DNA from: Enterococcus malodoratus ATCC 43197
GTDB lineage: Bacteria; Bacillota; Bacilli; Lactobacillales; Enterococcaceae
Direction: 5' to 3'
Length of the DNA stretch: 64,000 bases
NCBI RefSeq assembly: GCF_000407185.1
Contig: NZ_KE136481.1
Location: 1,093,636-1,157,635 of the forward strand
Part shown: piece by piece, positions 548-40,522 of the stretch
How the letters are laid out: every line of letters starts with the position of its first letter
Numbering within the stretch: the first letter of the stretch is position 1
Translations under genes and position numbers: made by a program
The notes under the pieces: model-generated
Told to the model about the DNA's origin: nothing
The model's database searches: none
The model's input: the letters and a program-made list of their open reading frames with translations, nothing else

Positions 548-690
548 TTGCAAATTCGCAGCTAACTCAGTAATAAGGAAATTCATTTTCGTACGCATAT
601 CTTTCTGCTAGACATCACACTTCAGGTATTTATTTTAATTACTAACAAACTTCGAGCTTTAATACTGCGAAAAGCAGAACAGACAAAAAG
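548..690 (+). repeat. Degenerate copy of the terminator-docked interspersed repeat
   Basis: The segment contains CGCAGCTAACTCAGTAATAAG, then ATTCATTTTCGTACGCATA, and further on ACTGCGAAAAGCAGAACAGACAAAAAG. These align in the same order and orientation with the well-preserved copies at 33107-33785 (CAGCTAGCTCATTGC, TTTATTTTCGTACGCATACC, ACTGCGAAAAGTTGGACTGGCAAAAAG). Like those copies it sits between the terminator of a minus-strand gene (yneF) and the start of the next (trxB). Much of the unit between the matching blocks is diverged, so this is an old copy. Confidence 0.5.
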
Positions 691-31564: not shown

Positions 31565-31706
31565 TGTAAATCTTCTGATGTTGGAAAGAAAACTGGCAGC
31601 TAGTTTATTTTACAGTAATCATTTTTCTCTGAAGAAAAATGAGTTTTATTTTCACCACGCATACCATTTTACTAACCTGCTAAAACAGGAAGGAAAACTG
31701 GCAAAA
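31565..31706 (+). repeat. Degenerate copy of the terminator-docked interspersed repeat
   Basis: ACTGGCAGCTAG, CAGTAATCATTTTTCTC, GAAAAATGAGTTTTATTTTC, ACGCATACCATTTTACTAA and a final ACTGGCAAAAAAAA align in order with the full copies at 33107-33785, on the same strand. It ends directly at the terminator hairpin of the VOC gene. Confidence 0.65.
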
Positions 31707-33033: not shown

Positions 33034-33106
33034 CTTATAGTGCCTCCTTGTTTTATCATCTCTGTGTTTATCATTTATCTAAGTTGATTGAATGAACAAT
33101 TGATTA

Positions 33107-33785
33107 GCTCTCATGGTTTATTTAACTGCAAAAAAATCGGGACTGGCAGCTAGCTCATTGCTTTGGTAATCATTTTTTCAAAAAATAAAAAAATGAATTT
33201 ATTTTCGTACACATACCATCCAACTAAACGGCTTGTACATTTTATTTTCAATAATTTATTTTATTGGCTCTCATAGTTTATTGAACTGCGAAAAAATCGG
33301 GACTGGCAGCTAGCTCATTGCTTTGGTAATCATTTTTTCAAAAAATAAAAAAATGAATTTATTTTCGTACGCATACCATCCAACTAAAAGGCTTGTACAT
33401 TTTATTTCCAATAATTTATTTTATTGGCTCTCATAGTTTATTGAACTGCGAAAAACCGGACTGCCAGCTAACTCTTTACTTTGGTAATCATTTTTTCAAA
33501 GAGCGAAAAAATGAATTTATTTTCGTACGCATACCATCCAACTAAACAGCTTGTACATTTTATTTCCAATAATTTATTTTATTGGCTCTCATAGTTTATT
33601 TAACTGCGGAAAAATCGGGACTGGCTGCTAGCTCATTGCTTTGGTAATCATTTTTTCAAAGAACGAAAAAATGAATTTATTTTCGTACGCATACCATCCA
33701 ACTAAACAGCTTGTACCTATAATTTGAATGAACAATTGAGTAGCTCTCATAGTTTATTTAACTGCGAAAAGTTGGACTGGCAAAA
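33107..33785 (+). repeat. Array of four ~160-bp repeats plus a partial fifth
   Basis: Unit starts (GCTCTCAT) at 33107, 33267, 33427, 33585 and 33743, giving periods of 160, 160, 158 and 158 bp. Each unit holds ACTGCGAAAA, a GGACTGGCAGCTAGCTC block, GGTAATCATTTTTTC with GAAAAAATGA as an inverted pair, TTTATTTTCGTACGCATACC, ACTAAA-GGCTTGTACATTTTATT, and CCAATAA / TTATTGG at the junction. The last partial unit ends GGACTGGCAAAAA at the pstS terminator. No open reading frame is conserved among units. Confidence 0.93.
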
Positions 33786-33786
33786 A

Positions 33787-33813
33787 GGGCACAGAAAATT
33801 TTTTTCTATGCCC
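33787..33813 (-). terminator. Terminator of pstS
   Basis: GGGCACAGAAAA / TTTTCTATGCCC, a 12-bp stem with one wobble pair; TTTTTGCC follows on the minus strand, where the repeat array begins. Confidence 0.8.
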
Positions 33814-33823
33814 TCTGAGATTC

Positions 33824-40058: not shown

Positions 40059-40149
40059 ATCTATTCCTTCTTTCTCCCGGATAATAAAATTACCCGTATA
40101 ACCAATCATTCAAAAGTCTATTACATTTTACTAAAAATAAGAGTATTTT

Positions 40150-40490
40150 GCTCGCAAACCATCCAATTAAATTGCTTGTAACTATAATTTGAATGAATAA
40201 CTTATCAAACTGTGAAAAAAAGAGTCTATTTTCTTACACATACCATCCAACTAAACGGCTTGTACATTTTATTTCCAATAATTTATCTTATTAGCTCTCA
40301 TAGTTTATTGAACTGCGAAAAAAACGGACTGCCAGCTAACTCTTTGCTTTGGTAATCATTTTTTCAAAGAGCGAAAAAATGATTTTATTTTCGTACGCAT
40401 ACCATCCAACTAAACGACTTGTACATTTTATTTCCAATAATTTATTTTATTGGCTCTCATAGTTTATTGAACTGGGAAAAGTTGGACTGG
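40150..40490 (+). repeat. Two copies of the interspersed repeat before prfB
   Basis: GCTCTCATAGTTTATTGAACTG occurs at 40294 and 40453 (159-bp period). A third, 5'-truncated copy precedes (ACATACCATCCAACTAAACGGCTTGTACATTTTATTTCC at 40237-40275). The central stem in the copy at 40355-40384 is perfect: AATCATTTTTTC / GAAAAAATGATT. As at 33.1-33.8 kb, the array ends GTTGGACTGGCAAAA at a terminator, here that of secA. Confidence 0.9.
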
Positions 40491-40495
40491 CAAAA

Positions 40496-40522
40496 GACGA
40501 GACATAGTAGCTATGTCCCGTC
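40496..40522 (-). terminator. Terminator of secA
   Basis: GACGAGACATAG / CTATGTCCCGTC, a 12-bp stem with one wobble pair and a TAG loop. TTTTGCC follows on the minus strand at the junction with the repeat. Confidence 0.8.

Follow-up and report, generated by a model that had tools for sequence, protein, structure and literature searches.

A two-hairpin repeat family of Enterococcus, probably mobile, with exact docking modes at terminators and at Shine-Dalgarno sequences

A family of small repeats was delineated starting from a 64-kb stretch of the Enterococcus malodoratus ATCC 43197 genome (64,000 nt, hereafter “the window”). Considered genome-wide, it is probably better described as a mobile two-hairpin repeat with two exact landing modes than as a satellite of terminators. 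Docking is exact to the base, and both modes occur within one genome: one class of units (T-type) adjoins terminators, and the other (S-type) adjoins start codons. The original prediction held that the repeats always abut terminators. That interpretation is partly supported, i.e. the family is real and the neighbor was correctly named for one class, but “always” fails because the S class, which comprises about half of the sites, shows almost no terminator association. The window happens to hold the T class alone.

Tandem Repeats Finder, run at its default score, detected a single tandem array in the window (33103-33770; period 160, 4.2 copies, 91% matches). A covariance model, R1, was constructed from 31 aligned units drawn from the host genome and its relatives. 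At E ≤ 0.001, it identified eight units in the window, all on the + strand (Table 1); two of these, 33626-33781 and 40334-40491, were in the training set and thus match by construction. The copies first noted were four tandem copies and a partial one at 33107-33785, two copies and a fragment at 40150-40490, and diverged copies at about 548-690 and 31565-31706; this description is confirmed. The flanking genes are on the minus strand, as had been observed, and the names given to them (pstS, secA, yneF, and a VOC gene) agree with their Pfam domains: PBP_like_2 (PstS-type), SecA, UPF0154, and Glyoxalase, respectively. The right ends of all four sets read ...ACTGGC followed directly by AAAA, or ...ACAGAC followed directly by AAAAA, and in each case a hairpin with the features of a minus-strand terminator contributes the A-run. 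All four sets are flush with the A-run, and three of the four pass a strict terminator test; the pstS terminator fails it by one T (5 of 9; -19.9 kcal/mol). No Rfam family reached its gathering score in the window, and no phage record matched the repeat at E 0.01.

Table 1. Positions of repeat units and adjoining terminators in the window, and of the copies of a repeat family in E. faecalis (last four rows)
Feature	Position	Strand	Basis
T-type unit 1, pstS array	33148..33307	+	R1, 120.6 bits
T-type unit 2, pstS array	33308..33465	+	R1, 121.7 bits
T-type unit 3, pstS array	33466..33625	+	R1, 123.4 bits
T-type unit 4, pstS array; right tip TGGC, last base 33781	33626..33781	+	R1, 150 bits (in training set)
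Partial right half, left of pstS unit 1	33088..33147	+	Sequence comparison
pstS terminator, A-run and GGGCACAGA/TATGCCC hairpin as read on +; flush with unit 4	33782..33815	-	Sequence
Degenerate T-type unit, secA array	40180..40333	+	R1, 52.7 bits
T-type unit at secA terminator	40334..40491	+	R1, 146.1 bits (in training set)
secA terminator	40492..40522	-	Present in relatives with and without the element
Partial copy, secA array	about 40140-40179	+	Sequence
Diverged T-type unit abutting the UPF0154 (yneF-type) gene terminator	560..684	+	R1, 80.7 bits
Short-loop T-type unit abutting the VOC gene terminator	31598..31702	+	R1, 76.7 bits
E. faecalis repeat family, copy	L094:17253-17569		Self-comparison
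E. faecalis repeat family, copy	L104:1475-1661		Self-comparison
E. faecalis repeat family, copy	L105:19764-19945		Self-comparison
E. faecalis repeat family, copy	L113:1031-1328		Self-comparison

The pstS array (33088-33781 with its partial copy) is not uniform. One hairpin-2 loop is common to the outer partial copy and unit 4, and a second one to the three inner units; over 47 nt, the partial copy is 94% like the loop of unit 4 and 68-70% like those of units 1-3. To judge from this arrangement, it looks as if variant units had been placed inside an older element. Two inverted repeats had been remarked on within the units. One, AATCATTTTTTC/GAAAAAATGATT, corresponds to a single covarying hairpin of the unit. 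The other, CCAATAA/TTATTGG, proved to be a variant confined to the loop, present in the secA unit and in the inner units at pstS, and is not conserved among the 31 aligned units.

The anatomy of the unit was established from the same 31 sequences using RNAalifold and pair counting. Each unit is 105-160 bp long and features two adjacent, back-to-back hairpins, in the order left tip, hairpin 1, left guide, linker, right guide, hairpin 2, right tip. The linker (consensus CGYATA) is CGCATA in T-type and CGTATA in S-type units. Among 586 cells of the paired columns, 95.7% were paired; there were 79 two-sided changes, 5 one-sided changes, and 25 unpaired cells, and 11 of the 19 pairs had changed on both sides. 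The number of paired cells, the number of two-sided cells, and the covariation score were reached in none of 500 shuffles; the counts of pairs and of pair types were reached in 8 and 37, respectively. Sliding the partners by one column lowered the covariation score from 0.397 to 0.120 or 0.028. The inverted repeats that had been noted are thus genuine and covary, and the proposal of a non-coding element is supported. On the transcript strand, G-U-type mismatches numbered 59, versus 30 on the other strand (of 2445 cells).

Both tips are paired to internal guides. Hairpin 2 is closed by the right tip (TNN-C), in which the trinucleotide before the final C is TGG, TGA, TCG, TCA, or TAG. In 71 of 78 parsed units (a plain, unshuffled count that leaves out 12 of 90 units whose right ends were not parsed), this trinucleotide is the reverse complement of the three bases that directly follow the linker, and the combinations of right tip and guide comprise five kinds of pair. 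Mutual information among 137 distinct host-genome units revealed an extra helix that is absent from R1, formed between the left tip and the bases just before the linker. For this helix, 38 of the 137 rows were without letters and were dropped (27 T, 11 S). Pairs 6-78 and 7-77 were both Watson-Crick in 66 of the remaining 99 units; the largest value in 1000 shuffles was 24. Among the 56 S units, 53 had a Watson-Crick pair at 6-78, and each of the four kinds of pair occurred there. Left-tip pairing is weak in the T units, both pairs being present in 22 of 43 (largest of 1000 shuffles, 19), and the rows dropped here were 27 of 70. The tips are thus linked by covariation to internal guides rather than to each other, and terminal inverted repeats are absent (left tip AGCTAGC or TCCT versus right tip ACTGGC). 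In arrays, the units are arranged head to tail, the right tip of one meeting the left tip of the next; of 47 inter-unit gaps, 42 measure 0 or 1 nt, which bears out the proposal of tandem expansion.

R1 was used to search the host genome (G000, 4.62 Mb). With 150 of 4587 candidates scored, at least 135 units in at least 88 sites were found at E ≤ 0.1, and 126 of the 135 passed E 0.001. Units were labeled according to the first letters of the left end, such that “T” signifies “not S-like”; by this usage, 42 of the 88 sites were T-type and 46 were S-type, and the flanking sequence of every one of the 88 was inspected. The left tip is mostly AGCTAGC or near it in T-type units and TCCTtaTTC or near it in S-type units, and the complement of the latter, GAataAGGA, is Shine-Dalgarno-like. 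On a tree of class-neutral columns, the two labels underwent 17 changes, the smallest number in 500 shuffles being 31; they are clustered yet not strictly separate. Both classes have one orientation relative to transcription where the docking tests pass, and the fixed orientation relative to terminators that had been claimed is supported.

Of the 42 T-type sites, 34, 36, or 37 have a terminator directly at the right tip, depending on which of three thresholds was applied. The same three thresholds passed 1, 1, or 2 of the 46 S-type sites; for comparison, 3168 control positions situated 150-600 nt away in the same flanks gave 30, 89, or 224 passes. Rfam places five T sites, from ten sources submitted, 3' of T-box leaders, and so the terminator itself, rather than the gene end, is the landmark. 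No clean target duplication was found at T sites. Two units of Enterococcus sp. 669A (L048:5440-5600 and L050:5040-5183) have no terminator and end in TGGC followed directly by AAGCTAGTTT; from the sequence, it appears as if they faced another element end.

The genome-wide profile search that had been proposed therefore sustains the terminator association for the T class (34 of 42) and not for the S class, which is found at start codons; copies lacking a terminator, which were to count against the original claim, thus make up about half of the family. Read on the opposite strand, the S-type left tip is a Shine-Dalgarno sequence. A start codon opening at least 60 codons lies 3-17 nt beyond this tip at 43 of 46 S sites; the controls passed in 5 of 88 and 2 of 42 cases. 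Outside the host genome, docking was assessed with 79 of 90 matches (11 rows from loci represented twice were left out), which gave 43 sites after one of 44 was dropped as an edge case; these loci were mostly found through similarity to T units. There, the start test was passed by 8 of 10 S sites and 0 of 33 T sites, and the strict terminator test by 23 of 33 T sites and 0 of 10 S sites.

The genes at S sites were named with NCBIfam from N-terminal fragments of at most 231 residues, several of which scored under the whole-protein cut-off, and 7 of 43 fragments had no NCBIfam match at E 1e-20. Those named include polA, der, efp, hisIE, map, glmU, rodZ, pdhB, dapH, and cydD, as well as macP, nrdF, upp, sufB, zwf, ffh, dnaE, gnd, rpe, and several PTS subunits. 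A regulon was considered and rejected; the genes are a mixed housekeeping set. Judging from the position of the left tip, S-type units apparently supply the ribosome-binding site of genes in about half of the sites. An AAGGA-like sequence is present on both sides of many S sites and may belong to the element or to the target. The accessibility of the Shine-Dalgarno sequence, as predicted by folding, had a median of 0.44, and 21 of 46 S sites were above 0.5.

The main rival to the mobile-repeat reading is a role in RNA. The units could be cis-acting cassettes whose hairpins are selected for mRNA processing, stability, or ribosome access, with copies being useful at gene junctions. The compensatory pairing in the hairpins, the doubling of G-U-type mismatches on the transcript strand, the placement of S units at the ribosome-binding sites of housekeeping genes, and the five T units 3' of T-box leaders are all in keeping with this explanation. 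However, the mixed set of genes suggests no obvious regulon, orthologs of map do without the element (see below), and T units behind ordinary terminators would be expected to be transcribed only rarely. Further, the strand bias of the mismatches may be mutational, and the predicted accessibility of the Shine-Dalgarno sequence points neither way. We regard this alternative as rather unlikely.

Variation among strains and species was surveyed for signs of movement. In five E. raffinosus chromids, 57 matches fell into ten orthologous sites; seven of these groups were assigned by similarity search or alignment, and three from order and score. Unit number differs among strains at 6 of the 10 sites, five of the six having been checked by sequence. 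All of these strain-level differences are gains or losses of units at sites that keep some element.

Empty sites, by contrast, were found only between species, and the strain comparison that had been suggested therefore gives variable unit number without presence/absence at a site. Element-free orthologous sites exist for both classes (secA, pstS, map; all read by eye, with 16 of 30 map loci viewed). At secA, the host genome has an array. In several relatives, a vestige resembling the right tip persists next to the same terminator, whereas G019, G013, G004, and G001, at least, have neither element nor vestige. The pstS array is present in the host genome only, among 20 genomes of the genus; G003 has a vestige. 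The terminator hairpin is intact beside the arrays at both loci, and relatives without the array also have it, which supports the proposed position beside terminators. At map, the host genome has an S unit, and G003, G018, and G005 have none and show the same 7-nt spacing from GGAG to ATG. The terminator, the ribosome-binding site, and its spacing are thus unaltered by the element at these loci. G002 and G012 show only a left-arm-like piece at map, and solo arms there and at prdF fit deletion as well as excision. A T-site remnant is present in G012 and absent from G002.

These comparisons also bear on the idea that the family is old, that it now changes by homologous recombination and gene conversion only, and that docking reflects the survival of harmless copies. 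The strain comparison, which yields nothing beyond unit gain and loss in arrays, the vestiges of decayed right tips that several relatives show at the secA terminator and G003 at pstS, and the interchange of T and S labels on the tree are all compatible with it. Base-exact docking at the T-tract, on the other hand, is hard to obtain from survival alone, the pstS array is confined to the host genome among the 20 of the genus, and the loop of its inner units differs from that of the outer ones. On balance, this explanation is judged unlikely.

The family extends well beyond the host. At 28 candidates scored per genome and with stricter filters, R1 matches were found in at least 37 of 105 family genomes (6 of 17 genera) and in at least 19 of 20 genomes of the home genus; G009, G010, G011, and G017 had at least 26 each. 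Plasmids of Lactococcus piscium and L. raffinolactis carry one T-type unit each (L052:3999-4108 and L053:3999-4108), with a terminator on one side and the start of a P-type ATPase gene on the other, which suggests transfer of this stretch from an enterococcus. On an E. faecalis plasmid (record LR962543), an S-type unit (L223:1420-1524) precedes an ortholog of a PTS IIC gene, even though no match came from the E. faecalis genome that was searched (150 of 3339 candidates scored).

With moderate confidence, we interpret the repeat as a family of non-autonomous mobile elements that are recognized by structure and have two landing modes. This reading builds on the observed structure, tip pairing, docking, orientation, gain and loss of units, and element-free orthologous sites. 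The paired tips would be what a putative trans-acting enzyme recognizes, probably on one exposed strand; this enzyme would join right tip to left tip and insert the element next to terminators or ribosome-binding sites. T and S units have different left tips and linkers, and this difference may determine the landing mode. Both kinds of docking site would tolerate insertion because the terminator and the ribosome-binding site remain intact. Against mobility, all strain-level differences can be explained by recombination alone, and the empty sites come from species comparison only.

No mobilizing enzyme was found, and the Y1 profile was without match in the host genome and in several element-rich relatives. 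The ends of IS200/IS605 elements are defined by pairing between guide and cleavage sequences, with the left guide at the 5' foot of the hairpin. The trinucleotide pairing of guide and tip and the tip-to-tip junctions of the present repeat resemble this arrangement, which would suit a miniature element of the IS200/IS605 type mobilized by a Y1 HUH transposase. PF01797 (Y1_Tnp), however, had no match in the host genome, G009, G010, G011, or G017; it was present in 13 of 15 genomes of genus g20, all of them without R1 matches (28 candidates scored per genome). In addition, the left guide of the present repeat lies 3' of its hairpin rather than at the 5' foot. A Y1 transposase was rejected as the partner for want of a PF01797 match in the host genome, and the IS200/IS605 explanation as a whole is considered improbable.

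A more specific form of the mobile-element reading is offered tentatively. The repeat may be a new minimal mobile element, both of whose ends are set by pairing to two internal guides that flank a conserved hexamer, such that the end sequences could drift freely while pairing is kept; two lineages that differ in left tip and linker would land on opposite RNA signals, the terminator tail and the Shine-Dalgarno sequence. The recognition rule is directly testable, because docking is exact, two modes occur in one genome, and covariation marks the pairing bases. By such docking, a repeat would spread with unusual precision and leave its host unharmed, and in this species a repeat appears to provide core genes (polA, dnaE, ffh, map) with their ribosome-binding sites.

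Bacteria carry many kinds of small structured repeat, for most of which site choice and mover are poorly understood. The open-licence PMC literature yielded no published name for the present family, in line with the initial impression that it was not a named element, and no description of the family or of repeats docking at Shine-Dalgarno sequences. The units resemble no classical MITE in that they lack terminal inverted repeats. REP/BIME sequences with their RAYT partners and IS200/IS605 ends have hairpins with a conserved foot and guide-like short pairing. The present tips, by contrast, vary yet stay complementary, the left guide is 3' of the hairpin, and the host genome has no Y1 match.

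Within the genus in the wide sense, the candidate for identity is EFAR (Efa-1). Efa-1 is described as a 163-bp element with two adjacent stem-loops and 65 copies in E. faecalis (PMC2267715), and Efa elements of this species also appear in PMC1590033. Features in common are a length of ca. 160-170 bp, two adjacent hairpins, intergenic placement, tens of copies, and frequent proximity to gene 3' ends. G021 was presumed to be E. faecalis on the strength of a primer for this species that matched 1 of 105 genomes. If the repeat were EFAR, R1 should find copies in this genome; at E ≤ 0.1, with 150 of 3339 candidates scored, it found none. When 400 kb of G021 were compared with themselves, a family of four long copies, about 180-320 bp, and two fragments emerged (Table 1), which is a candidate for EFAR/Efa-1; it is unrelated in sequence to the present repeat, sharing nothing above chance with the units (best E 0.14). 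EFAR is said to target stem-loops, and its insertion reportedly deletes most of the target stem-loop. An element like the family from G021 (84% over 58 nt) is found at about 130204-130319 of G012:C10, where the close species G002 has a terminator hairpin (G002:C1, 42453-42479). The present repeat, unlike EFAR as so described and unlike the G012 copy, leaves the terminator whole, and it has a Shine-Dalgarno class. The repeat is very probably not EFAR/Efa-1, an identity to which hardly any weight is given.

BOX, RUP, and SPRITE of the pneumococcus are likewise small, structured, and intergenic, they follow gene strand bias, and BOX has a variable number of boxB modules; the part of that account consulted describes no base-exact docking at terminators or Shine-Dalgarno sequences, and the present repeat is set apart from them by description (PMC3049150). 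Class C group II introns insert immediately behind intrinsic terminators, with the 5' end adjoining (PMC8919778). Insertion behind a terminator is what is found at 34 of 42 T sites; the 46 S sites differ. The group II ribozyme core is absent from these units, given their length and the lack of Rfam families in the window. Among known elements, class C introns come closest in their choice of site, yet the present units are not introns: class C introns are much larger ribozymes with a reverse transcriptase, whereas the present units are 105-160 nt long, form tandem arrays, and include a class that docks at Shine-Dalgarno sequences.
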